IMG/VR virus record: IMGVR_UViG_3300028666_000067 | Span: 1 to 38,282 of that record | Length of the DNA stretch: 38,282 nt | Origin: a virus | Direction: 5' to 3' (one strand) | Shown: positions 9,028 to 21,084 of the stretch, piece by piece | How positions within the stretch are numbered: position 1 is the first letter of the stretch | Layout of the letters: every line of letters begins with the position of its first letter | Program-made: the position numbers and the translations under genes | Notes under the pieces: model-generated | What the model was told of the DNA's origin: nothing | Seen by the model: only the letters and a program-made list of their open reading frames with translations | The model's database searches: none

Positions 9028-9153
9028 CGAGTTTGATTCACTCACTTCACAGGTCTACTGACGGAGGTGGACTATCGGTTTATGACGGCGAGCAGAAACG
9101 AGGCTGATCTACGTCAACTTTCACTTTTCAATCATCACACAGAAGGAGCCACC

Positions 9154-10119
9154 ATGGCCAAGGATAAGAAGAAGGACGAGGAACTGGAAGAGGACGAGAA
9201 GGACATCAAGAAGAAGGGCAAGAAGAAGGAAGATGAAGAGGACGAGGACGACGAGAAGCCGAAGAAGAAGGGCAAGGCAAAGGACGACGACGAAGATGAG
9301 GACGAAGACGAGGAGGAAGACGAGAAGCCTTCCAAGAAGAAGTCCAAGTCTGACGACGAAGACGAAGATGATGATGACGATGACGACGAGAAGCCTTCAA
9401 AGAAGAAGTCCAAGTCCGATGACGAAGACGAGGATGAAGACGAGGATGAGGATGACGACGACGATGAGGACGACAAGAAGTCCAAGTCGAAGAAGAAGTC
9501 CAAGTCTGACGACGAAGACGAAGATGAAGACGAGGATGACGACGACGAGGAAGATGAAAAGCCTTCCAAGAAGAAGAAGTCCAAGTCCGATGAGGACGAT
9601 GAAGACGACGACGAGGATGAGGACGAAAAGCCCAAGTCCAAGAAGAAGTCGAAGAAGTCCGATGACGAAGACGAAGATGAGGAAGACGAGAAGCCTTCCA
9701 AGAAGAAGTCCAAGAAGTCCTCTGATGACGATGAGGATGACGAGGATGAGGACGAGGAGAAGTCCTCCAAGTCCAAAAAGAAGTCCAAGTCCAAAGATGA
9801 CGAAGAGGACGAGGACGACGAGGAAGACACCCCCAAAGGAAAGAAGGAGAAAACCATGGCTAAGAAAGAGAAGGACGTGAAGAAGAGCAAGAAGGAGAAA
9901 GAGGAGAAGAAGGAGAAGAAGAGCAAGCGAGGCAGCGGTGGTGAGCGACTGGTGAAGCATTGGTCGGGAGTCGCTGAGCGGCTGGCCAAGCGCTTGGCCA
10001 AGAACGCCAAGAAGCTGACCAGCGAGCTGAAGAAGGTGAAGGACGACAAGGAGTCCAGCAAGGCGCTGAGCTCTTTGGGAGAGTCCTTCGAGAAGGCTGC
10101 CAAGGTCTTGGCGGACTAA
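9154..10119 (+). CDS. Lys/Asp/Glu repeat protein with basic C-terminal domain
   Basis: 321 aa from ATG 9154, which follows AGAAGGAG by about 5 bases; the frame is open back to GTG 9067 and ATG 9082, but these are less well placed. Residues 25-230 are tandem blocks of acidic runs (DDEDEDEDED) joined by EKPSKKKSKS-type linkers. Residues 235-321 are very basic and helical (VAERLAKRLAKNAKKL), reminiscent of histone-H1-like DNA-binding tails. The polyacidic part may mimic DNA or act as a flexible shield; the basic part may bind DNA. A second start lies inside at 9856. The gene ends in a strong terminator, suggesting high expression. Function not established. Confidence 0.75.
   Translation: MAKDKKKDEELEEDEKDIKKKGKKKEDEEDEDDEKPKKKGKAKDDDEDEDEDEEEDEKPSKKKSKSDDEDEDDDDDDDEKPSKKKSKSDDEDEDEDEDEDDDDDEDDKKSKSKKKSKSDDEDEDEDEDDDDEEDEKPSKKKKSKSDEDDEDDDEDEDEKPKSKKKSKKSDDEDEDEEDEKPSKKKSKKSSDDDEDDEDEDEEKSSKSKKKSKSKDDEEDEDDEEDTPKGKKEKTMAKKEKDVKKSKKEKEEKKEKKSKRGSGGERLVKHWSGVAERLAKRLAKNAKKLTSELKKVKDDKESSKALSSLGESFEKAAKVLAD
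9233..9840 (+). repeat. in-frame acidic/Lys coding repeat
   Basis: Imperfect tandem repeat of roughly 60-75 bases: GAC/GAT/GAG/GAA runs separated by AAGCC-TCC-AAGAAGAAG units, encoding acidic runs and KPSKKKSK linkers. It is similar in base sequence to 20626-21080 in the SSB gene. Such tracts can change length by slippage or recombination. Confidence 0.75.
9846..9858 (+). promoter_or_regulatory. internal ribosome binding site and start codon
   Basis: GGAG at 9846-9849 lies 6 bases before an in-frame ATG at 9856 (AAGGAGAAAACCATGGCTAAG). This closely copies the arrangement at the gene's main start (AAGGAGCCACCATGGCCAAG at about 9143). It would give an 87-aa product containing only the basic domain. 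Confidence 0.45.
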
Positions 10120-10225: not shown

Positions 10226-10966
10226 ATGTTCTTCTACGAAGCCTTCAGCACTTTCGATGGAGCCTATCGATCTGTGTTGAGAGACATCCTAACGAAGGCA
10301 AAGTACAGTCCTTCGTCTAGAGGCCGAAAGTTCTTTGAGATCCCACAGTACACATTCGTACTGGAGAATCCAATGAACAACGAAGTCTCAGCGACACCGC
10401 GAGGCTTCAAGAGAGAATTCGCTCAGAAGTTCTTTGAGTGGATCTGGAATGGTGAGTCAGACATCACCAAGCTCTTTGGTGTGAATGACAACGCCAAGAA
10501 GTTCAGCGACGAAGATATGAAGGGACGCAACACAGCATATGGACCTCGCTTTGTCGAACAGAGAGAGCGAATCATTGCTGAGCTGAAGAGAGATCCAGAC
10601 ACCAGACGAGCTGTGATCAATATCCTCTATCCAATAGACTCAGAAATGCTGGAAGACTCGTTCAATGGGCTCACAAAGGTCGAGTACCCATGCACGATCG
10701 CACTGCAGTTCATGATCAGAGACAAGCAACTCAATCTTCATGTTCTGATGCGTTCGAACAACGCAGTCACAACGCTCTGCTATGATGTGTACAACTTCAC
10801 ACACATCCAAATGGCAGTACTGCAGAGACTTCAGAACGAAGGAATGGAGATCGATCTCGGACATTACTATCACTCCGCAGTTTCGATGCACATCTTCGAA
10901 GATGAGATGAGCTTAGCGAAGAAGATCTTGAACTGGTACGTTCAAAGACAAGGCATCAAAATCTGA
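10226..10966 (+). CDS. thymidylate-synthase-fold enzyme, probable dCMP hydroxymethylase
   Basis: 246 aa with the thymidylate synthase core: phosphate-binding Arg pair in DTRR (127-128), catalytic Cys156 in EYPCTIALQF, RS at 176-177, and the folate/nucleotide end GHYYHSAVSMHIF. In E. coli ThyA, Arg166 is followed 11 residues later by Asn177, which selects dUMP. Here Arg176 is followed 11 residues later by Asp187 (LCYD). Asp at this position is the hallmark of dCMP hydroxymethylases such as T4 gp42. The expected reaction is dCMP plus methylene-tetrahydrofolate to 5-hydroxymethyl-dCMP. First gene after a terminator; a GAGGAGG links it to the next gene. Fold certain; substrate inferred. Confidence 0.8.
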   Translation: MFFYEAFSTFDGAYRSVLRDILTKAKYSPSSRGRKFFEIPQYTFVLENPMNNEVSATPRGFKREFAQKFFEWIWNGESDITKLFGVNDNAKKFSDEDMKGRNTAYGPRFVEQRERIIAELKRDPDTRRAVINILYPIDSEMLEDSFNGLTKVEYPCTIALQFMIRDKQLNLHVLMRSNNAVTTLCYDVYNFTHIQMAVLQRLQNEGMEIDLGHYYHSAVSMHIFEDEMSLAKKILNWYVQRQGIKI

Positions 10967-10975
10967 GGAGGAAGC

Positions 10976-12046
10976 GTGCTCAAACTAATGGTTGGCAGCA
11001 ACTACGACCCAGCGTTGCCTGAGGCTTTCAGAGCTCTCAACGAGAAGTATGCTGGTAATGGCATACAGATCCATGAGATCTATGGTTCAGTGCAAAGCGT
11101 TAAGGTGTTTGGTTCAGCGCGTCCTGACTTCCGTGTTCCTAAAACGGATGTTGAGACGTTCGGCAAGACGGTGAAGCAATTTGTTGATGCAGGAATCTTG
11201 GTGAACTACACCGAGAATATTCCGATCGTCAAGAAGAGCGACATCGACAAGGTGTTGATCAAAGAGAAACTCGACATGCTGAAGAGCTTTGGCGTTGGGC
11301 GATTAACGATCAGCCATCCTCTTGCGATGGAGTTGGTTCAAGAGCTGTGCGACATTCCGATCGAGATCAGCACCATCTATCGAGCGAATACAGCGTACCA
11401 GCTGCGTGAGTTAAAGCGACGGGCACCCAACATTAACAAGATGTGCTTGGATGTTGCTCAGAACCGGAACTTCAAACTCATCTTCAAGCTTCTCGAGGAA
11501 GCAAAGAAGCTCGGTATCGACATCGAACTTCTGGCCAATGAGCTTTGCATTGCTGACTGCGCTGATCGAGTGCAGTGCTACAACGATCATGCTCAAGTGG
11601 CTGATGAGAAAGAAGCAGCTCAACAGAAGAGTTATCCGATGGGACGGTGCACTTATCTTCGCAATGCGATGAGTCCAGTTGAATGGACTCGTGCTCGCTT
11701 CATCTTGCCTCAGACGATGAAGTTCTACGAGTCAGTCACTGGCATCGATCATTTCAAGATCACTGGTCGTACTCACCCAACCAAGTACATCCTTTGGATC
11801 GTTGAGGAGTACTTGAAGCAAGACTTCCACGGTAATCTGCTTGGTCTTTGGGCTGATGTGAAGAACATTCAGCGCATTGCAAGAGGAGCAGAGGACTTCT
11901 TAGAACCTAACTTCTACATTGACTCAGAACCATATGGCAGCGAGTTCATTCGCAGATATTTGAATGACCCGATGCTCATCGACTTGGATCTTGATCATGA
12001 GTATGACATACTCAACAAGATCTTGGAGACGTCCCTACAGAAGTAG
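10976..12046 (+). CDS. peptidase U32-like protein (Fe-S TIM barrel)
   Basis: 356 aa, GTG start after GAGGAGG. U32-like features: alternating strands and helices of a TIM barrel (residues 1-185), the block IELLANELCIADC, and a C-terminal TGIDHFKITGRTHP with YLKQDFHGNLLGLW. Four cysteines (191, 195, 201, 225) could hold an iron-sulfur cluster. Despite the family name, the best studied members (UbiU/UbiV, TrhP, RlhA) take part in oxygen-independent hydroxylation of ubiquinone precursors, tRNA uridine or rRNA cytidine; others are linked to proteolysis. Lying between a dCMP-hydroxymethylase-like gene and dCMP deaminase/glycosyltransferase genes, it may hydroxylate a base or nucleotide. Family call good; activity inferred. 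Confidence 0.7.
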   Translation: MLKLMVGSNYDPALPEAFRALNEKYAGNGIQIHEIYGSVQSVKVFGSARPDFRVPKTDVETFGKTVKQFVDAGILVNYTENIPIVKKSDIDKVLIKEKLDMLKSFGVGRLTISHPLAMELVQELCDIPIEISTIYRANTAYQLRELKRRAPNINKMCLDVAQNRNFKLIFKLLEEAKKLGIDIELLANELCIADCADRVQCYNDHAQVADEKEAAQQKSYPMGRCTYLRNAMSPVEWTRARFILPQTMKFYESVTGIDHFKITGRTHPTKYILWIVEEYLKQDFHGNLLGLWADVKNIQRIARGAEDFLEPNFYIDSEPYGSEFIRRYLNDPMLIDLDLDHEYDILNKILETSLQK

Positions 12047-12070: not shown

Positions 12071-12409
12071 ATGAGCAAGAAAACCAAGAATGGCTTCAAG
12101 AAGCTTGAGAGCGGTGATCTGTCGTTCCGCTTCGAGCACTTTGAAGGTGGAGTGATCAAAGGTGGAGATGAGGTCAATGGTGACACGTTCACAGCTAGGA
12201 TCTCGATGAGTGGAGCTGGTGAGGCTCCCGGTGTTTACAAGTCGGAGAAGAAAGCAAAGCAGCACATCATCGACTTCGTGAAGAAGCAGTTGAAGAGGAC
12301 CTTGAAGGAATTCGAGAAGCGGTTGAAGGAAACCAAAGCTGATTTGAAGAGCGATGAGAAGGAAGTCGAGTTCCAGCAGAAGCTCCTCAAGAAACTGAAG
12401 AAGGTGTAG
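12071..12409 (+). CDS. hypothetical protein, 112 aa
   Basis: Starts MSKKTKNGFKKLE after GGAGG. The N-terminal half looks like a small beta domain with Gly turns (FEHFEGGVIKGGDEVNG); residues 55-112 form a long Lys/Glu coiled coil. It lies inside the nucleotide-modification block but shows no catalytic motif. Possibly an accessory or DNA-binding subunit; function unknown. Confidence 0.65.
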   Translation: MSKKTKNGFKKLESGDLSFRFEHFEGGVIKGGDEVNGDTFTARISMSGAGEAPGVYKSEKKAKQHIIDFVKKQLKRTLKEFEKRLKETKADLKSDEKEVEFQQKLLKKLKKV

Positions 12410-12413
12410 AGAC

Positions 12414-12875
12414 ATGAAGGACAAGAATGCTCTTTGGACTGATCTGCTGCTTCGCTTTGCAGCACAATCAGAATGCAAGTCGAGGCAGATCGGAGCAATC
12501 ATCCTTGTAGAAAACCGTCTGGTCTCACAAGGGTGGAACAGTCCGCCACCTCATGTGAGCACAGACGACTGTTTGCGGTGTCAGTGTAAAGACAAGCCGC
12601 ATGAGTCAGGAAAGAACCTTGACAATGCGATCTGCATTCATGCAGAACAAAACGCTATCATGAATGCTGTATACAACGGCATAGCATTGAACGGCGCTGA
12701 GATGTGGTGCACCAATAAGCCTTGCGATATCTGTGCTGCAATGATCTGCCGGTCTGGGATCAAGACAGTCATATACCTCAATGACTACCCATCTCAATAC
12801 GCAGACATGTTCTTTGCTAAGTCGAACATCCGGGCGTTCTCAATCGAACAATACTCCAAATGGAGCAGTCAATGA
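12414..12875 (+). CDS. deoxycytidylate (dCMP) deaminase family protein
   Basis: 153 aa. Cytidine/dCMP deaminase zinc site: IHAEQNAI (His76-Ala77-Glu78, Glu as proton shuttle) and NKPCDIC (Cys104, Cys107). An extra Cys cluster CLRCQC (53-58) before it is typical of dCMP deaminases with a second zinc. It converts dCMP (or its hydroxymethyl or other derivative) to dUMP. In this block it would supply dUMP or tune the dCMP pool competing with the hydroxymethylase-like enzyme. Overlaps the glycosyltransferase start by ATGA. Confidence 0.88.
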   Translation: MKDKNALWTDLLLRFAAQSECKSRQIGAIILVENRLVSQGWNSPPPHVSTDDCLRCQCKDKPHESGKNLDNAICIHAEQNAIMNAVYNGIALNGAEMWCTNKPCDICAAMICRSGIKTVIYLNDYPSQYADMFFAKSNIRAFSIEQYSKWSSQ

Positions 12876-14167
12876 AGATCCTTTACGCAGTGCAAGTGTC
12901 CAACACAACGAAGATGCCAGACGGTTCTATGAAATGGTTGCTTCGCAATGATGCATGTGTCAACATCATGCGTGGCATCTTGATCGCTGTGTTGAAGAAG
13001 AAGCCTCAATGGCAGTTCGTCGTGAAGTTGCCAAGGTTGAAGGACATCGCAGACATGAAGTCGTATGCTGAGCTCTTCCCTGAAGAGATTCGCGACAACA
13101 TCATGATCTATGAGGACGACATCCCGATCTCACCTGTGACCAGTCGCTTCCACTTCGACTTCTTGCGTAGAAGGAAAGAGTTCCTCATCAATCCATTCCT
13201 TCATGGCATTGATGTCATGATCAATGATGAGAACACTCACACAATGAGCTGGAAGGTCGTGTTCCACGATCTCGGCTTGAGCATTCCGATGATCAGTACC
13301 AATTACTTCTTCGACAATCCTATTGGGAAGAAGACACCGAAAGGTGTTTGGTACTTCGATCGTCAAGTGGAGAGCTTCATTCACTCTGAGATCACAGCTT
13401 TCCAATGTGAAGCTACGAAAGATGAGACGATCAGAGTCCTTGATCAGCATCTCACAAGAAAAGGCGATTACACAATGCATTGGAAGCCTTCGATCTGGGG
13501 CATTGGATGCAGCGCCACTGAAGTGCTTGACAAGAGGATCCAAGCTTTTGAATTTCATTCTCTTAGCTTGAGACCAATCATCTATTTTGGCAATCGAATC
13601 ACAGAGACCGCTGGTCGATATACCAACTGGGATGATTTTGCTTATGGCATTGGAAAGTTGCTAGCGATCAAAGATCACACTCAATTCTCTGCTTACATGC
13701 TTGATCCAACTCGTAAAGTGACACGAGAACAACAAAACGTCATTGATGACGGTTCAGATCATCGGATCACTTTGCTTCATCTCAACAGAGAGCAGTATCT
13801 TGGTTTCATTCGCGGTCAGCACATCAGCTGCAACCTCTTCGTCAATGAGGTACATGGTGGCGTGACTCACGCAGAAGCCATGTTGGCTGGCAACTTGATC
13901 ATCTGCCCTCGAGTCAACAACTACAAGATCAAGATCGAGAAATATGCGAAGAACTATCCGCTCTTCGTGAAGCACAAAGGCTTCAAGATAGATACCACTG
14001 ACCTTGCGAAGAAGATGCATTTGGCTCTCACCATGCCGAAGGCTGAGCAATTGAAGTGGAGGAAAATGCTTGTCAAAGCTGCAATGGAGAACGAGACGTA
14101 TGAGTCAGCGGCTCCACGCATCATCGCTGATATCACAACTGCCAGCAAGATGGAGCTGATGCCATGA
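12872..14167 (+). CDS. GT-B type glycosyltransferase
   Basis: 431 aa from ATG 12872, supported by GGAG at 12862-12865 and the ATGA overlap; an in-frame ATG at 12860 is less well placed. The C-terminal Rossmann half carries NEVHGGVTHAEAMLAG (325-340) followed by NLIICP, the donor-binding E-x7-E-type loop of retaining GT-B enzymes; residues 232-240 form the strand opening that half (LRPIIYFGN). The N-terminal half begins MKILYAVQVS, a normal GT-B first strand. No membrane helix, so the acceptor is likely soluble. Given the neighbours, sugar transfer to hydroxymethyl-cytosine in DNA is the leading idea; protein or surface glycan acceptors remain possible. Confidence 0.72.
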   Translation: MKILYAVQVSNTTKMPDGSMKWLLRNDACVNIMRGILIAVLKKKPQWQFVVKLPRLKDIADMKSYAELFPEEIRDNIMIYEDDIPISPVTSRFHFDFLRRRKEFLINPFLHGIDVMINDENTHTMSWKVVFHDLGLSIPMISTNYFFDNPIGKKTPKGVWYFDRQVESFIHSEITAFQCEATKDETIRVLDQHLTRKGDYTMHWKPSIWGIGCSATEVLDKRIQAFEFHSLSLRPIIYFGNRITETAGRYTNWDDFAYGIGKLLAIKDHTQFSAYMLDPTRKVTREQQNVIDDGSDHRITLLHLNREQYLGFIRGQHISCNLFVNEVHGGVTHAEAMLAGNLIICPRVNNYKIKIEKYAKNYPLFVKHKGFKIDTTDLAKKMHLALTMPKAEQLKWRKMLVKAAMENETYESAAPRIIADITTASKMELMP

Positions 14168-14343
14168 GCTTCACAGTGACGACGATCAAAGGAACTGACA
14201 TCGTCAAAGCTGATATGGTGGATGTGAAAGATGGTATTCTTGAGTTTCAAAAAGAGACCAAGAGTAGCAGTCTTCGTTTTGGAAATTACAAAGTAGTTGC
14301 ATCGTACAATATGAAGCACGTCATCAAATGGGTGGAGAGATGA
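14164..14343 (+). CDS. hypothetical protein, 59 aa
   Basis: ATG at 14164 overlaps the glycosyltransferase stop (ATGA). The product begins MSFTVTTIKGTDIVKAD and ends HVIKWVER. It looks like a compact beta sheet: TTIKGTDIVKADMVDVKDG, ILEFQKE, YKVVASYN. No motif recognised. Coupled at both ends, so likely translated with its neighbours. Function unknown. Confidence 0.65.
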   Translation: MSFTVTTIKGTDIVKADMVDVKDGILEFQKETKSSSLRFGNYKVVASYNMKHVIKWVER

Positions 14344-14615
14344 TAAACTCAATTCGTATTTCACTTCACAATCTTTTAGTTCGATTGGCGATGTGGATTC
14401 ATCCAAGTAAACAGACGGCGCAAGAAATGATATTGGATCTTCGAAGAGAGCGATTGATCTTTGGTGAATCGTTTTATACGATCGTAAAGATCGATCCATA
14501 CAAAGTGTTCATCAAAGCTTCAATCAACAATGACAAGGTACCTACTACTGCTGAGATCGCCGATATCTTTAGTGGCGCTGGGACACGACACATTTATGAG
14601 AGGGTAGAACAATGA
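14340..14615 (+). CDS. hypothetical protein, about 91 aa
   Basis: The start is ambiguous: ATG 14340 overlaps the upstream TGA, while ATG 14328 lies in the same frame without a ribosome site. Product from 14340 begins MINSIRISLHNLLVRL. Its N-terminus is an amphipathic/hydrophobic helix (ISLHNLLVRLAMWI), then an alpha/beta domain with FYTIVKIDPYKVFIKASI. More AT-rich than neighbouring genes. Function unknown. Confidence 0.6.
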   Translation: MINSIRISLHNLLVRLAMWIHPSKQTAQEMILDLRRERLIFGESFYTIVKIDPYKVFIKASINNDKVPTTAEIADIFSGAGTRHIYERVEQ

Positions 14616-15184
14616 AGATCATATTTGAAGGTGCAGACAAAACAGGCAAGACGACATTGGCCAATCTTCTCTCGAAGAAACTTGGCATGAAGATGTTCTA
14701 TCCTCCGAGAGCAACTGACAACGTGAGCTTCCCGGAAGGTGGAAAGATAGAGCACTACTTCTTAGGCATCAACAAAACAATGCTTGAGATGTTCAAGATG
14801 TTCGACAACTTCATCTGCGATCGTTTCTTCATATCGGACGCAGTGTACTCTAAGATCTACGGAAGAACACAGAACATCAGCACGCCAATGATCACAAGCA
14901 TCGAAGGCGATGTCTTAGTCGTTGTCACAACGTGCTCTTCTGCAACGAGAATGGAACGATTGATCGCAGAAAGTCCAGACGACACTGGACCAGAGTTTGA
15001 TGAACATCTTCATGGTGTGATGTTCACCGAGTACGTGAAGTTCTATGCTCCAAAGTTTCCAGCCAACTTCAGGTTCTTGATCGTTGACACTGGTCGTCAC
15101 AATGAGAAGCAATGCATTGAGATGATAGAGGCAAAGATCAAGTTCATAAGGGCAATGCGCCTTAACAAGAAAAAGAAGTCGTGA
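14612..15184 (+). CDS. deoxynucleoside monophosphate kinase-like P-loop protein
   Basis: 190 aa. Begins MKIIFEGADKTGKTTLA: P-loop GADKTGKTT (7-15) in the form used by thymidylate kinases and dNMP kinases. The DRF motif in NFICDRFFISDAVYSKIYGR is the usual nucleotide-binding Asp-Arg. The C-terminal half matches kinase lid and core length. In the block it could phosphorylate hydroxymethyl-dCMP, or dTMP, to diphosphates for DNA synthesis. Exact substrate not determined; a deoxynucleoside kinase is the alternative. Confidence 0.75.
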   Translation: MKIIFEGADKTGKTTLANLLSKKLGMKMFYPPRATDNVSFPEGGKIEHYFLGINKTMLEMFKMFDNFICDRFFISDAVYSKIYGRTQNISTPMITSIEGDVLVVVTTCSSATRMERLIAESPDDTGPEFDEHLHGVMFTEYVKFYAPKFPANFRFLIVDTGRHNEKQCIEMIEAKIKFIRAMRLNKKKKS

Positions 15185-15744
15185 ACTTAAAGCTGATCAA
15201 CGCAAAAGTCGAACTGTGTAATAAATGTAAGCTGTCACCAAACAGAGGTCTTGGTTATGGTGATGGAAAATCAAAGATCATGTTCATCGCTCAAAACGCT
15301 GGATGGCAACCGAAGTCTCGCACAGCAGACATCATCCCATTCGGTTTAGATGATGGTGGCAACAACAGTGGTAGAACACTCGTCAAGTTGTTCAAAGATG
15401 TAGAGATGAATGCACCATACTACATCACCAACGTGATGAAGTGCCCGACACCAGACAATAGGCCTCCTACAGATGATGAGATCTTTCGATGCATAGACTT
15501 TCTTCGCTTAGAACTAGAGAGTCAGAAGCCGAAGTTGATCTTCGTCATGGGCAACGTGGCTAAGCACTCCTACAACTTCTACATGAAGCGGTTGTTGAAG
15601 AAATTGTTGGATGATGGTCACTGCTGGTTTGTGCATTACATGTGGCATCCACGAGCAGTGATGAGGAATCCAAAGCTTTACGCACAATGGAAAACTGAGT
15701 TCGATGCGTTCTGGACTCAGTACAAACATCTGGTGAAACAATGA
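15181..15744 (+). CDS. uracil-DNA glycosylase superfamily, family-4-like
   Basis: 187 aa, GTG start overlapping the upstream TGA. Four cysteines suited to a 4Fe-4S cluster: CNKC (13, 16), KCPTP (88) and Cys104 in FRCIDFL. TNVMKC matches family 4, as does the C-terminal catalytic loop MWHPRAV (His156). The first active-site motif is usually GEAPG with an acidic residue after it; here it is AQNAGWQPKSR (37-47), so the catalytic pocket is altered. It may excise uracil or another damaged or modified base, or may have lost base excision. Located between a dNMP kinase and the polymerase. Confidence 0.78.
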   Translation: MNLKLINAKVELCNKCKLSPNRGLGYGDGKSKIMFIAQNAGWQPKSRTADIIPFGLDDGGNNSGRTLVKLFKDVEMNAPYYITNVMKCPTPDNRPPTDDEIFRCIDFLRLELESQKPKLIFVMGNVAKHSYNFYMKRLLKKLLDDGHCWFVHYMWHPRAVMRNPKLYAQWKTEFDAFWTQYKHLVKQ

Positions 15745-18700
15745 GCTTTGTCAACTTGCATATACACAGCGAGAACTCCTTACTCGATGGAGTTGGAACG
15801 ATCAAAGAGATCGTGAAGAAAGCCAAAGAGCAAGGTTCACCTGCCATTGCTGTTACTGATCACGGTAATGTCAATGGTGCTGTGCAGCTCTATCAAGAAT
15901 GCAAGGAAAACGGCATCAAACCGATCTTTGGATCAGAGTTCTATTTCGGTTATGATGCTGAGAAGAAAGAGAAGAATACCGGCAACATGCACCTCATCGT
16001 GCTGGCTAAGAACAAGCAAGGCTTTGAGAATCTTCTGCGTCTCAACGGATGGGCCCACAAACACGGGTTCTATCGCAAGCCTCGCATAGACTTCGCTCAT
16101 TTGAAAGAGTTGAAGGAAGGATTGATCGTTCTCTCTGGTTGTACTTCTGGTGTCATCGCCAAGAAGCTGATTGCCAAAGATTACGATGGAGCTTTAGAAT
16201 GGGCAGAGAAATTCAAGAAGGTCTTTGGTGAAGACTACTATCTTGAGATGCAAGTGCACGACTACAAAGAACAAAGGGTCGTGAACAAAGGCATCATCAA
16301 ACTCAGCGCAGAGTTGAAGATCAAAACAGTCATCACCAATGATGCTCACTATGTCAACGAGGATGATGGTCTCCTCCAAGATGTGATGGCACTCATCAAG
16401 CAGAAGAAGACGTGGAAGGATCGAAAGGAGGCTCTGGAAAGAATCAAACGTGGTGAGCCATCCAAAATGCCTTGGGAGCTTGGCTGCAAGCAACTGTGGA
16501 TGAAGAGCGAAGACGAGATGTTAGCGAGTTGGAAGGAATGGCATAAGGACTACATGGATCGTAAGATCTTTGAACGTTCTGTCGCTGAGACTGCGAAACT
16601 CTCGGAGAAGATAGACAATGTCGCTATCGATTCATCTTACAAGTTTCCAAACATCGACTCTAAAAAGAGCGTTGAGGATACCTTTCAAGAAATGCTTGAT
16701 GAAGGCTTTAAGAAACGAGGCTTCAAAGATTCAAGCAAAGATGAGAAAGCAAGAATCAAGTATGAACAGAAGATCCTTCAGGATTTAGGACTCCTGCCAT
16801 ACTTCGTGATCTTGGCCGATGCAATCAAAGAAGCAAGGAAGCGTGGGATCATGGTTGGCATTGGTCGTGGTTCAGCCGCTGGTTCTCTCATCTGCTACTG
16901 CCTCGGCATCACAGGTGTCAATCCTCTGATCCACGGTCTGATGTTCGAAAGGTTCATCAGTCCAGCCAGAAAAGACATGCCTGATATTGACGTGGACTTC
17001 GAATCTGAACGCAAAGGCGAGATCGAAGAATACCTCATCAGCAAGTATGGTGAGGATAAGGTTGGACACGTTGCAACATATGGCATGATGCAGTTGAAGT
17101 CCTCCATCAAAGACGTTTCACGTGTGATGGGTGGAGATCCAAAAGCTACCAACGATTTCACGGCTGTCTTCCCGAAAGACATTGACAAAGAAGTGAAGAC
17201 GAAGTATCCGAAGCTTTCTGATTTTAAGGAAGCCTTCGCTGAGCACGTCGACAAGTTCTTGTCAGCACACGAGAAACATGAGAAGATCCTCAAAACAGCT
17301 TGGAAGCTCAAGGGTAGGATTCGGCACATCAGTCAACATCCAGCTGGGATCGTCATCACTCCTAAGCCATTGGATCACTTGGTTGCGGTACAGCGACACG
17401 GTGGTAAGCTGTTGATTGGCTGGACAGAAGGTCAGAGGAAGGAACTGACTCCTTTCGGCTTTGTGAAGTATGACGTGTTGGGCATCAAAACGCTCGACAT
17501 CTTGAAGAGAGCTTTGCAGCTTATCAAGAAGCGTCATGATAAAGACATCGACATTGAGACCATTCCGCTGACAGACAAGAAAGTCTACAAGAAAATGAGC
17601 AAGGGACTTTCACTCGGTTCCTTCCAGTTTGAAACTGACATCATGGCGATGATGCTCAGAGAACTTAAACCGGATTGCTTCGATGATCTTGCAGCTCTCA
17701 ATGCTCTCGATCGACCTGGTCCGTTGCGAATGAAGATGGACAAGGTCTTCTATGATCTCAAGCATGGTGTTGAGAACAAGAATACGAAGAAGATGGTGAA
17801 ACAGATCATGCGTAAGATGTTCCCTGAAACATACGGCGTTGTGCTGTATCAGGAACAAGTGATGATGGCTGCAATGCAGCTGTCAGGATTCTCAGTCATT
17901 GAAGCTGATGATATGAGAAGGACGATCACGAAGAATGTCGGTAAGTTCGACAAGCCAGAAGTCAAGAAACTGCTTGATGAAGTGAAGCATAAGTTCATCA
18001 GTCGTGCAACAAAGAAGATCGGCGAGTCAGATGCTAAGTTCGTTTGGGAGATCATCTTCAAGTTCACTGAGTACGGCTTCAACAAGGCTCACTCAGTTTG
18101 CTATGCGATGATTGGCTATCAATGCATGTATTTGAAAGTCAACTACCCAATCGAGTTCTACACAGCGATCCTTCAATGGTCCAGTGGCACTGACACTGAG
18201 GTCTACATTGAAGACGCTTTGAAGAACGGCATCAAGATCTTGCCAGTGGATATCAACAAGTCGAAGCTTCGCTTCAAGCCAGAAGGCGATGGCATCAGAT
18301 ATCCATTGGGTCACATCCGTGATGTGAAGAAAGCAGCCGTGAGGATCGTTGAAGAGAAATACAAAAGCTTCGACGACTTCCTCAAGAAGATAACAGGAAA
18401 GCGAGTCAACAAGAAGTCGATCATGTCACTCATCAAGGCTGGTGCATTTGACTCGATGGATCCAAAGATCAAGCGTGACAAGCTTGCCTATCTCTACACT
18501 AAGATGAAAGCCAAACCAAAAGAGAGAGAGGCTATTGAACGAGAGAGGTGGGATGTTTCAAAGCTCCTGAAGATGGAGAAAGAAGCTTATGGCTTTGAAT
18601 TCTCTGTCCATCTGTTCGATGATATGCTCGTCAAGCTTGGAAAAGATCACGGCCTAGAACATTTAGAAAAGGTTTTCGAGAATGACGCCGGTTACCAAGC

Positions 18701-18956
18701 TCACGTTGGTGGTATCATTCGTTCAGTGAGAGAACATCGAGCCAGAAATGGTGTGATGGCCTTCGTTGACTTTCAATTCGGAAAGAAGAAGGCTTCACTT
18801 ACGATCTTTGGTGATCGATGGCAGACGTACAAACACTTCGTCAAGCCAGGTGCATTGTTCTATGGAGATCTCACAGTTTCAGAATATCGTGAGAAGAAGA
18901 ACTTCGTGCTTTCTGGGCGTGGTGGAGCAGATAACTACATGAAAGTTGTAGATTGA
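15741..18956 (+). CDS. dnaE: DNA polymerase III alpha subunit (DnaE-type)
   Basis: 1071 aa, complete. The N-terminal PHP domain starts NLHIHSENSLLDG and keeps the metal ligands His7, His9, Asp40-His41, Glu66, His84, Cys134 and Asp201/His203. The polymerase palm has MPDIDVDF with catalytic Asp415 and Asp417, and KYDVLGIKTLD with Asp578. GFNKAHSVCYAMIGYQCMYL and the helix-hairpin-helix KSIMSLIKAGAFDSM follow, then a C-terminal OB-like region. Slightly shorter than E. coli DnaE (about 1160). It would be the phage replicase; the intact PHP metal site could supply proofreading, since no DnaQ-like exonuclease is seen in the window. Starts with an ATGA overlap. Confidence 0.97.
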   Translation: MSFVNLHIHSENSLLDGVGTIKEIVKKAKEQGSPAIAVTDHGNVNGAVQLYQECKENGIKPIFGSEFYFGYDAEKKEKNTGNMHLIVLAKNKQGFENLLRLNGWAHKHGFYRKPRIDFAHLKELKEGLIVLSGCTSGVIAKKLIAKDYDGALEWAEKFKKVFGEDYYLEMQVHDYKEQRVVNKGIIKLSAELKIKTVITNDAHYVNEDDGLLQDVMALIKQKKTWKDRKEALERIKRGEPSKMPWELGCKQLWMKSEDEMLASWKEWHKDYMDRKIFERSVAETAKLSEKIDNVAIDSSYKFPNIDSKKSVEDTFQEMLDEGFKKRGFKDSSKDEKARIKYEQKILQDLGLLPYFVILADAIKEARKRGIMVGIGRGSAAGSLICYCLGITGVNPLIHGLMFERFISPARKDMPDIDVDFESERKGEIEEYLISKYGEDKVGHVATYGMMQLKSSIKDVSRVMGGDPKATNDFTAVFPKDIDKEVKTKYPKLSDFKEAFAEHVDKFLSAHEKHEKILKTAWKLKGRIRHISQHPAGIVITPKPLDHLVAVQRHGGKLLIGWTEGQRKELTPFGFVKYDVLGIKTLDILKRALQLIKKRHDKDIDIETIPLTDKKVYKKMSKGLSLGSFQFETDIMAMMLRELKPDCFDDLAALNALDRPGPLRMKMDKVFYDLKHGVENKNTKKMVKQIMRKMFPETYGVVLYQEQVMMAAMQLSGFSVIEADDMRRTITKNVGKFDKPEVKKLLDEVKHKFISRATKKIGESDAKFVWEIIFKFTEYGFNKAHSVCYAMIGYQCMYLKVNYPIEFYTAILQWSSGTDTEVYIEDALKNGIKILPVDINKSKLRFKPEGDGIRYPLGHIRDVKKAAVRIVEEKYKSFDDFLKKITGKRVNKKSIMSLIKAGAFDSMDPKIKRDKLAYLYTKMKAKPKEREAIERERWDVSKLLKMEKEAYGFEFSVHLFDDMLVKLGKDHGLEHLEKVFENDAGYQAHVGGIIRSVREHRARNGVMAFVDFQFGKKKASLTIFGDRWQTYKHFVKPGALFYGDLTVSEYREKKNFVLSGRGGADNYMKVVD

Positions 18957-18977: not shown

Positions 18978-19457
18978 ATGCTAAAGCCAGTGTTCGATAT
19001 GACCGTGATCAAAAAGCTCTTGAGAGTCGTGGTGTTCAACATGCCTTTCAAGAACAAGTTCGTTCACGTGATCGTTGGTGACGCTGAGTCTGGTTTTACA
19101 CCGGACACAAGTGACATCACAAACGCTCTTCACGAGATGGCGACAAAGGATCAGAAGAACTTCGGTGACACAGTCTTCCTCACTACAAACGCTGGTATCA
19201 AGTTCAGACCAATGAGGATCGAGAGCTTGAAGAAGAAGATCACCTTCGTGATCGTTGGTGATGAGAACACAAAGTATGACGATGTGGAGTTCAAGAAGAT
19301 CGAGTTAGAAGTGAAAGCCGCTTTTGAATCTGCGAAGCTCAGCACGACAAGGGTCGTTGTGTTGAGGTATCCAGTGCAGATGGTAAGCGGTGACGATGTC
19401 GAGGAGGCTCCACATGTCGAAGTTCGGAAACCAGGAGTTGATACAAAAGCTTCGTGA
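18978..19457 (+). CDS. hypothetical protein with internal VIVGD duplication
   Basis: 159 aa, preceded by AACTCATGGAGG (18962-18973), a short form of the repeated leader. The segment KFVHVIVGDAE (28-37) recurs as ITFVIVGDEN (88-97), and the coding DNA repeats CGTGATCGTTGGTGA exactly, pointing to an internal duplication of a strand-turn unit. Alpha/beta, no known catalytic motif. Lies between the polymerase and the recombination/SSB genes. Function unknown. Confidence 0.65.
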   Translation: MLKPVFDMTVIKKLLRVVVFNMPFKNKFVHVIVGDAESGFTPDTSDITNALHEMATKDQKNFGDTVFLTTNAGIKFRPMRIESLKKKITFVIVGDENTKYDDVEFKKIELEVKAAFESAKLSTTRVVVLRYPVQMVSGDDVEEAPHVEVRKPGVDTKAS

Positions 19458-19974
19458 CAAGATAGGCGGTGAGGAGTTCAGCATCAGCATCAATGCATTG
19501 CAGTACAAAGGCAATGTGCTTGAGATGCTGATCTCCTACGATCCAGACGACTACGATTCTCTTCAACGTGAGTTCCTCCTTCAACCAACGCGTTTTGCAA
19601 AGTTTGGTATCTTCTTAGCTAAAGCAAAAGACATGCTGAGTGATACTGAACGGCAATTCAAGAAGTGGAAGCGAAGCAAGCGACGCGTAGCTATTGAACG
19701 GTTGCATCGTCGATTCAAAGAGGATGGCATCAAACGTGGTATCACAAACGACGACATTGATGCCTACATCGAGGAGAAGTTCGCTGATGAACATGAAGAA
19801 TTCGAGAGAAAGCTTCAGCGTTGGAGGAAGAATGTCGACATTCTGGAGGTAATCAAAGACTCGTTCAAGCAGAAGAAGGACATGCTAGTTAGCGCTGGTA
19901 TGCTCTTCAATAAGGCCATCGACCTCGGCTTCATTGAGGTCAAGAAGCGCAAACTCATCAATCATTCAAACTAA
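19414..19974 (+). CDS. UvsY-like recombination mediator candidate
   Basis: 186 aa from ATG 19414, chosen because GAGGAGG precedes it by about 6 bases. After an N-terminal alpha/beta part, residues 60-175 form long helices: KFGIFLAKAKDMLSDTERQF, then TNDDIDAYIEEKFADEHEEF, then DSFKQKKDMLVSAGMLFNKA. A basic helix pair, a 'T-x-x-x-I-x-A-x-I' segment and a final 'K-x-x-ML' helix are typical of the UvsY-like phage proteins often encoded beside SSB. These load RecA/UvsX recombinases onto SSB-coated DNA. RecA and SSB follow here, which supports the idea. Similarity is by pattern only. Confidence 0.5.
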   Translation: MSKFGNQELIQKLRDKIGGEEFSISINALQYKGNVLEMLISYDPDDYDSLQREFLLQPTRFAKFGIFLAKAKDMLSDTERQFKKWKRSKRRVAIERLHRRFKEDGIKRGITNDDIDAYIEEKFADEHEEFERKLQRWRKNVDILEVIKDSFKQKKDMLVSAGMLFNKAIDLGFIEVKKRKLINHSN

Positions 19975-19983
19975 GAGGTAACC

Positions 19984-21084
19984 GTGGGTAACAAGTGGCA
20001 AGACGCAATCGCAAACAGCGGTGGTGACGATATCCGCCGTTTGAAGGTCAACGCTCCAGCCAAGGGTGAGAAAACGAAGCTCAGGATTCGCATCATCGAC
20101 AACAACTTCGAAGATGCGTGGGTTCACTTCTTCCCTGGCTTCAAAGAGAACGGTGAGAAGGGAGTTCGCTTTGCCGTGTGTCATGGCAAGGGCAAGTGCC
20201 CTATCTGCGCCAAGTTCGAGGAGAGCGGAGACGAGGACTTCAAGGCGAAGCGTCAGTTCTACATGAACGTGATCGATCGCAAGGCTGAGAAGCCTCAGGT
20301 CATGGTCTACCAATGCGGTTTCGGTACGTTCAAAGACATCGCTGCTCTCACTGATGAGGATTCCGGTCTCACGGATCCCAGCGAGTTCGATGTGATCATC
20401 ACTCGTGTCGGTAGCAAGAAGACCGACACACGCTACACGATCAAGCCGTTCATGAAGGATGGCGTGGTCGTGAAGAAGAAGTTGCCTTCCGACCTGCGTG
20501 AACTGATCGCTGCCAAGACGGAGGACGGTGGTCCTTATGATCTCTCCAAGTTCGTCGAGAAGGTTTCGATCGACGACATCGAAGAGATGCTGACTGGCAA
20601 CTTCTCGTCCAAGGCCAAGGGCAAGAAGAAGGACGATGACGAGGATGACGAAGACGAGAAGCCGAAGAAGAAAGGAAAGAAGTACGCCGCTGATGACGAT
20701 GAGGACGAGGACGACAAGCCGAAAAAGAAGAAGAAGTCGTCTGATGACGATGAGGATGATGAGGACGAGGACGAGAAGCCGAAAAAGAAGTCCAAGAAAG
20801 ACGAAGATGAGGATGACGATGAGGACGAGGACGAGAAGCCCAAGAAAAAGGGCAAGAAGAAAGATGATGAGGACGAGGACGAAGATGAGAAGCCTCGGAA
20901 AAAGTCGAAGAAGAAGGATGATGACGACGAAGACGAGGATGAGGACGAAGATGAGAAGCCCAAGAAAAAGGGCAAGTCCAAGTCTGACGATGACGACGAG
21001 GACGAAGATGAAGACGAGGATGAGAAGCCTCGCAAGAAGTCGAAGTCCAAGAAGGACGACGACGATGATGAGGATGAAGACTGA
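19984..21084 (+). CDS. single-stranded DNA-binding protein, gp32-like, with acidic tail
   Basis: 366 aa, GTG start after AGAGG. Residues 1-205 form the DNA-binding core. It holds a zinc site (VCHGKGKCPIC, Cys66/His67/Cys72/Cys75), FYMNVIDRK, CGFGTFKDIAAL and FDVIITRVG, the layout of T4 gp32-like phage SSBs. Residues 210-366 are an unusually long tail of DE-rich runs and KPKKKGK linkers ending DDDDDEDED. Short acidic SSB tails recruit replication partners and compete with DNA; a 155-residue tail broken by Lys blocks is odd. The tail resembles the repeat of the 9154 gene. Sits before recA and after polymerase. Confidence 0.85.
   Translation: MGNKWQDAIANSGGDDIRRLKVNAPAKGEKTKLRIRIIDNNFEDAWVHFFPGFKENGEKGVRFAVCHGKGKCPICAKFEESGDEDFKAKRQFYMNVIDRKAEKPQVMVYQCGFGTFKDIAALTDEDSGLTDPSEFDVIITRVGSKKTDTRYTIKPFMKDGVVVKKKLPSDLRELIAAKTEDGGPYDLSKFVEKVSIDDIEEMLTGNFSSKAKGKKKDDDEDDEDEKPKKKGKKYAADDDEDEDDKPKKKKKSSDDDEDDEDEDEKPKKKSKKDEDEDDDEDEDEKPKKKGKKKDDEDEDEDEKPRKKSKKKDDDDEDEDEDEDEKPKKKGKSKSDDDDEDEDEDEDEKPRKKSKSKKDDDDDEDED
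20626..21080 (+). repeat. in-frame acidic/Lys coding repeat in the SSB tail
   Basis: Imperfect tandem units of roughly 50-65 bases: GAT/GAC/GAG runs, then GAGAAGCC(G/C/T)-AAGAAAAAG-type linkers. Similar at base level to 9233-9840, which makes the pair a potential recombination substrate. Confidence 0.75.

Follow-up and report, generated by a model that had tools for sequence, protein, structure and literature searches.

The DNA analysed here, called the window throughout, is the whole of a 38,282-base virus record from IMG/VR (IMGVR_UViG_3300028666_000067). A near-identical longer record, IMGVR_UViG_3300029957_000007 (122,758 bases), encodes an identical copy of the U32-family protein that is the subject of this analysis. 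The gene lies in a compact run of + strand genes that extends from a thymidylate synthase (TS) homologue to a family-4 uracil-DNA glycosylase (UDG), followed by a polymerase gene:

10226..10966, + strand: TS homologue, 246 aa (PF00303, E 2e-12; residue comparison with E. coli ThyA)
10976..12046, + strand: U32-family protein, 356 aa, predicted [4Fe-4S] hydroxylase (PF01136, phrog_5757, model against 5d88, cysteine conservation)
12071..12409, + strand: lysine-rich ORF, 112 aa (weak DUF5659 match, below cut-off)
12414..12875, + strand: dCMP-deaminase-like protein, 153 aa (PF00383, E 1e-18; phrog_174 dCMP deaminase, E 5e-34)
12860..14167, + strand: 435-aa protein, possible GT-B-type glycosyltransferase (by eye)
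14328..14615, + strand: 95-aa ORF with no Pfam or PHROG match
14612..15184, + strand: thymidylate-kinase-like P-loop kinase (PF02223, E 3e-7; phrog_761, E 4e-19)
15181..15744, + strand: family-4 UDG-like protein (PF03167, E 4e-16; NF040953/TIGR00758 below cut-off)
15741-18956, following the UDG: long ORF read as a gene for the alpha subunit of DNA polymerase III, similar to the pol III gene of contig L033

The U32 gene starts with GTG, 9 nt after the TS homologue and a few bases downstream of an AGGAGG-like ribosome-binding site, and the 112-aa ORF separates it from the deaminase gene. Several neighbouring genes in the run overlap, by 4 to 16 bases, as would fit a single transcript. Just 5' of the TS homologue, positions 9067-10119 encode a 350-aa protein that consists mainly of Asp/Glu and Lys/Ser repeats.

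A preliminary description of this DNA had placed the ORF in the U32 family on the strength of two C-terminal motifs, TGIDHFKITGRTHP and HGNLLGLW, both of which are present. In the profile search that it proposed, the protein narrowly passes the curated score of PF01136 (Peptidase_U32; 23.1 bits, with 22.4 required), a relative on the metagenomic contig L042 reaches 31.1 bits, and the match to PHROG 5757, labelled 'peptidase', is strong (E 3e-51). An AlphaFold model built from 20 related proteins (pLDDT 85, pTM 0.87) has the U32 protein Mk0906 (5d88) as its first-ranked match in a Foldseek search of the PDB (E 9e-8). VIA gave 5d88 a Z of 17.3 over 224 residues at 3.1 A; the runner-up, from another barrel family, had a Z of 12.3. 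By these matches, the ORF is a member of the Peptidase_U32 family with a predicted U32 barrel fold. Searches of the PDB with the protein or its profile yielded no usable relative (one chance match, E 1.4), no solved structure from this phage U32 group was found there, and a plasmid search with the protein had no match.

The four cysteines singled out earlier (191, 195, 201, and 225) are kept in all 20 aligned proteins, and E184 is kept in 19 of them. Their spacing in the window protein, C-x3-C-x5-C-x23-C, is indeed tighter than that of UbiU, CX6CX16CX38C, and the general U32 pattern is given as CX6CX15CX3/4C (PMC6747719, accessible part); most of the aligned relatives have C-x10..15-C-x5-C-x22..23-C. 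Alignment by hhalign with a profile of E. coli UbiU, UbiV, TrhP, and RlhA (probability 96.5%) places E184, C195, and C201 on the Glu, C169, and C176 of UbiU. C225 seems to fall near UbiU C193, and C191 seems to replace C232. Residues reported as essential are E162, C170, and C177 in TrhP and E161, C169, and C176 in RlhA (PMC6599085, accessible part). The four cysteines of the window protein are expected to be [4Fe-4S] ligands. The reading of the protein as a peptidase was dropped, because it retains the Glu/Cys set and the U32 members studied so far act as hydroxylases.

The preliminary description had further set the gene between dCMP hydroxymethylase-like and dCMP deaminase genes. The deaminase-like gene downstream stands; the upstream gene is of another kind. 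In this TS homologue the catalytic Cys (C146, E. coli ThyA numbering), R126, R127, R166, S167, and H207 are retained, the phosphate-binding Arg/Ser set among them, and the N177 position is occupied by Asp, the dCMP-type residue. At folate-site positions, E58 is replaced by F, D169 by N, and G173 by T. T4 gp42 shares with it the TS superfamily, the dCMP-type Asp, and the catalytic Cys; however, both gp42 and SPO1 gp29, which use folate, retain E58 and D169. Because F and N stand at these two positions, a standard folate-dependent dCMP hydroxymethylase of the gp42 type was rejected. The same folate-site losses are common to the RB69-type enzyme and the TS homologue of L042, and they are shared by that of L058, another contig with U32, in which the D169 and N177 positions were read by eye. 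The RB69-type homologue is named as a 5-hodCMP synthase in the accessible part of PMC13390438, and by its residue signature the window protein is better read as 5-hydroxy-dCMP-synthase-like. Its closest solved sequence is RB69-type (9iqu/9iqc). The PDB entries 9iqc, 9ir2, and 9iqu are near-identical to the TS homologue of phage JS09 and are labelled just 'Thymidylate synthase'. The longer record of the window virus also encodes a normal thymidylate synthase, so the homologue is not needed for dTMP.

Two further genes of the run may belong to the same pathway. The thymidylate-kinase (TMK)-like protein is a candidate kinase for a modified dNMP, and a similar dNMP kinase occurs near U32 in several other loci. 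The 435-aa protein has no match in Pfam, PHROG, the PDB, or the phage records, and its predicted structure has a pLDDT of 38.7; from inspection it is possibly a GT-B-type glycosyltransferase. Just one other IMG/VR virus has a relative of it, also beside U32 (L032/L056).

A tblastn search of 50,697 phage records matched the U32 protein in 218. These copies all share 80-100% identity with that of JS09, so the named phages form a single tight group, Mosigvirus and other RB69-like Straboviridae, in which the U32 gene is standard. The preliminary description had missed this occurrence in phages with published DNA modification, as well as the link to prephenate described below. To that group the window protein is distantly related (33-37% identity). 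Scans of IMG/VR recovered 23 contigs with U32 relatives, and a scan of GTDB recovered two contigs of metagenome-assembled genomes (MAGs); the nearest relative is on L016 (60% identity). The MAG contig L061 is read as phage because it carries a head-closure protein and a match to anaerobic ribonucleotide reductase. In L023 (6590-8004), a TMK-like gene, a SAM-methyltransferase, and a dCMP deaminase precede U32, and in L062 (7810-9141) a kinase-methyltransferase fusion lies two genes before it. As a variant of the pathway, hydroxylation in these two might be followed by O-methylation to a 5-methoxy pyrimidine.

The DNA of some phages that carry this gene has been characterized. Mosigvirus DNA has arabinose joined via oxygen directly to cytosine C5 (PMC13390438, accessible part), in Thanatos-1 DNA the sugar O-linked to C5 is a deoxypentose, and the accessible text of the Thanatos study states that its authors had no valid hypothesis for the origin of the hydroxyl (PMC12838424). 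Both Mosigvirus and Thanatos-1 carry U32. Published work already covers the modified base, the sugar genes, and the role of the TS homologue. The module around the RB69ORF050c-type U32 (PHROG 5757), associated with glycosyl-5-hydroxycytosine, resembles the window in the U32 subfamily, the cysteine columns, and a nearby folate-less TS homologue and dNMP kinase. It differs in the 33-37% U32 identity and in its putative transferase, and the window has a deaminase and a UDG in the run. None of the pentose genes of that module (A5P isomerase, ORF52, ORF51, and NTase) was found in the 38-kb window by BLASTP.

That U32 works in the synthesis of the activated sugar is suggested by its position beside the pentose genes of RB69-like phages and by the annotation in phage AlbertHofmann, 'putative enzyme involved in UDP-arabinose biosynthesis'. 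However, the U32 genes of the window, L016, L023, and L032 have no RB69-like pentose isomerase or kinase genes near them, phages with the pentose module can be without U32, and the U32 precedents hydroxylate rings. We regard a sugar role as very improbable.

RlhA and TrhP of E. coli, which act on rRNA C2501 and tRNA U34, share with the window protein the U32 domain and the matching Glu and two Cys, and similarity in C5 hydroxylation of a pyrimidine and in use of prephenate would be expected. The window protein differs from them in its own cysteine spacing, its length of 356 aa, and its place among DNA-nucleotide genes, and its expected substrate is dCMP whereas theirs is RNA. UbiU and UbiV, which act in ubiquinone synthesis, share the U32 fold, and four Cys with a [4Fe-4S] cluster and O2-independent hydroxylation would be expected in common; the difference in cysteine spacing was given above, and no second U32 gene was seen in the window cluster.

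The preliminary description had also allowed for host tRNA or rRNA as the substrate, that is, for a viral hydroxylase of the RlhA/TrhP type. The described U32 enzymes that act on nucleic acids do target RNA (PMC6599085, accessible part), and the profile of the window protein is similar to those of RlhA and TrhP. Beyond these family precedents nothing was found in favour of such a substrate: the 38,282-base window contains no tRNA gene, and the neighbours are dNTP and DNA-modification genes, none of them for RNA. An RNA substrate therefore seems improbable to us.

The survey of U32 genes beside TS-like genes suggested earlier revealed a recurrent linkage. A TS scan returned 57 loci, 28 of them folate-less and dCMP-type and 29 D169-retaining, and U32 is near 13 of the 28 folate-less loci vs none of the 29 others; the Fisher p of 1.5e-5 is no true probability because many of the loci are close kin, a phylogenetic non-independence that inflates every p-value in these comparisons. 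The two genes adjoin in the window and are near neighbours in 11/11 Straboviridae loci. None of the three features on which the initial reading could have failed, namely the match to the U32/TIM barrel, cysteine conservation, and a recurrent neighbourhood of modification genes, came out against it.

The linkage is incomplete in both directions. U32 is absent from the stretch read at 15 of the 28 folate-less loci, and a profile search of the complete records of IME341, IME523, Berthold, and PAU found no U32; this search did not include a positive control, but the same profile matched 6/7 records in another search. U32 is therefore not obligatory where a folate-less TS homologue is present, unless a host U32 or another oxidant substitutes; at such loci either a host U32 helps, or another oxidant acts, or the product is a different one. 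L066, L065, L009, and L011 are genomes with folate-less TS homologues and without any U32. Conversely, 11 of 14 metagenomic U32 loci have no folate-less TS homologue in the records searched, so joint action is not general on present evidence.

These two sets of loci keep alive a two-route alternative, in which the folate-less TS homologue alone makes 5-hydroxy-dCMP, perhaps with O2 or a host oxidant, and U32 provides a parallel route for low O2. Acinetobacter and Sphingomonas are strict aerobes, and such hosts would fit a route that uses O2; IME341 and IME523 infect facultative hosts instead. Most restriction enzymes fail to cut the DNA of DLP1 and DLP2, two T4-like phages of Acinetobacter (PMC10051250, accessible part). 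The published name of the RB69-type homologue assigns the synthase activity to the TS homologue itself, and dual pathways have a precedent in tRNA, where TrhO uses O2 and TrhP uses prephenate (PMC6599085, accessible part). The 85.7-kb contig L057, with RB69-like sugar genes, U32, and a DAHP synthase-chorismate mutase and no TS homologue, also speaks for this alternative, but it may be a fragment. No O2-using partner was seen, and the proximity of TS and U32 genes in the window and the Straboviridae loci fits joint action equally well. We consider synthesis by the TS homologue alone unlikely.

A second line of evidence links U32 to the supply of prephenate. Prephenate is the product of chorismate mutase. 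TrhP, which forms 5-hydroxyuridine, and RlhA, which forms 5-hydroxycytidine, both require it (PMC6599085, accessible part). In Proteus phage Pm5461 the interval from U32 to TS holds a gene annotated as chorismate mutase, profiles place one there in 9/11 Straboviridae loci from IMG/VR, and a CM_2 domain (Pfam) adjoins U32 in Thanatos-1 and PSTCR6. Twenty-five T4-like records, 14 with U32 and 11 without, were searched whole. Chorismate mutase (CM_2) is present in 12/14 records with U32 vs 0/11 without, DAHP synthase in 10/14 vs 0/11, and one or both in 14/14 vs 0/11. The 11 records lacking U32 represent 10 distinct genomes, since L066 and L107, equal in length, appear to be one phage; absence of U32 was established by profile in six, via the TS loci in four, and for L010 just from tblastn, whose matches are all at least 80% identical to JS09. 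The pattern also holds inside one genus: U32, chorismate mutase, and DAHP synthase all occur in the Kanagawavirus phages CIP9 and KLB31, and none of the three occurs in IME523. In KLB31 (L145), DAHP synthase lies at 137252-138235 and U32 and chorismate mutase stand in a row. Neither chorismate mutase nor DAHP synthase was found near 44 TS loci without U32.

Of the 14 U32 loci from metagenomes and MAGs, four carry a gene for chorismate mutase or DAHP synthase near U32, and the other ten, several of them short fragments, have no such gene near U32. L016 and L057 carry a fusion of DAHP synthase and chorismate mutase near U32, and L032 carries DAHP synthase. The L061 contig has chorismate mutase near U32 and shikimate dehydrogenase 8-9 kb away. 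That gene (19432-20154) is the only shikimate dehydrogenase match in the 1.7-Mb MAG and lies on the phage-like U32 contig; otherwise this enzyme was found just in the second MAG, on a contig other than that of U32. EPSP synthase was absent from the ten virus records searched, and two MAGs have it on other contigs. The 122,758-base record of the window virus contains neither chorismate mutase nor DAHP synthase, and chorismate mutase was found neither in RB69ORF049c (53 aa in JS09) nor in Marfa.

A JS09-type DAHP synthase is present in 209 of the 50,697 phage records; its counts per host resemble those of U32. Among the matches listed, 29 of 60 DAHP synthase records are also among 131 of the 218 U32 records, and some of the remaining ones are short and look like host DNA. 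MT837090, a DAHP synthase match filed among phages, reads as a bacterial chromosome and was rejected. In IMG/VR the search for DAHP synthase returned four contigs, three being the seeds and the fourth L071, a 74.6-kb contig with a DAHP-synthase/chorismate-mutase fusion at 1282-2274 and no U32 in the whole record. DAHP synthase thus does not imply U32.

Phage DAHP synthase and chorismate mutase might only boost aromatic amino acids, with the link to U32 incidental, and this is how the KLB31 DAHP synthase is read in the accessible part of PMC11845039. On the other hand, their presence tracks U32 in the T4-like records (14/14 vs 0/11), also inside one genus, and chorismate mutase either sits between the U32 and TS genes or, near U32, forms a fusion with DAHP synthase. 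We think it improbable that amino acid supply is their whole purpose.

Together with the folate-less TS homologue and the dNMP-kinase-like gene, the linkage to chorismate mutase and DAHP synthase gives good comparative support to the initial suggestion that a pyrimidine nucleotide or the phage DNA is hydroxylated. We consider it probable that the window U32 protein is a prephenate-dependent, O2-independent hydroxylase that helps make 5-hydroxy-dCMP, with or alongside the folate-less TS homologue. The TS homologue would bind dCMP and activate C5 by TS chemistry, with its Cys on C6. The U32 enzyme, with its predicted [4Fe-4S] cluster, would supply the oxidizing hydroxylation without O2 by moving a hydroxyl from prephenate onto C5 of dCMP. 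The TMK-like kinase would then phosphorylate 5-hydroxy-dCMP, which would be put into DNA, and the new oxygen would be glycosylated there, as in RB69-like phages; this order of kinase, polymerase, and transferase is taken from the published RB69-type scheme. By draining dCMP to dTMP, the deaminase and the normal TS could favour the modified base.

More broadly, phages may hydroxylate a DNA base independently of O2 by combining U32 with a viral prephenate supply (DAHP synthase, shikimate dehydrogenase, and chorismate mutase, partly fused), making 5-hydroxy-dCMP beside or in place of the folate-less TS route, with related phages mixing both routes. This wider proposal is tentative, and our opinion on it is nearly evenly balanced. 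No role for U32 or for phage prephenate genes in DNA modification was found in the open-text literature, among the matches listed; Lee et al. 2025 (on biosynthesis) or Mahler et al. 2025 may already assign one.

The route by which the hydroxyl reaches C5 in O-glycosylated cytosine DNA is stated to be open by the Thanatos authors (PMC12838424, accessible part). If U32 acts with prephenate as proposed, a base hydroxylated without O2 would enter DNA. For a family known to act on RNA and quinones, a DNA nucleotide would be an added substrate, and viral shikimate genes, which have been read as amino acid helpers, would also feed a hydroxylase. The U32 mechanism and phage DNA modification would become testable together in phages of E. 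coli. Whether a phage can be cut by restriction and CRISPR systems depends in part on such DNA modifications.
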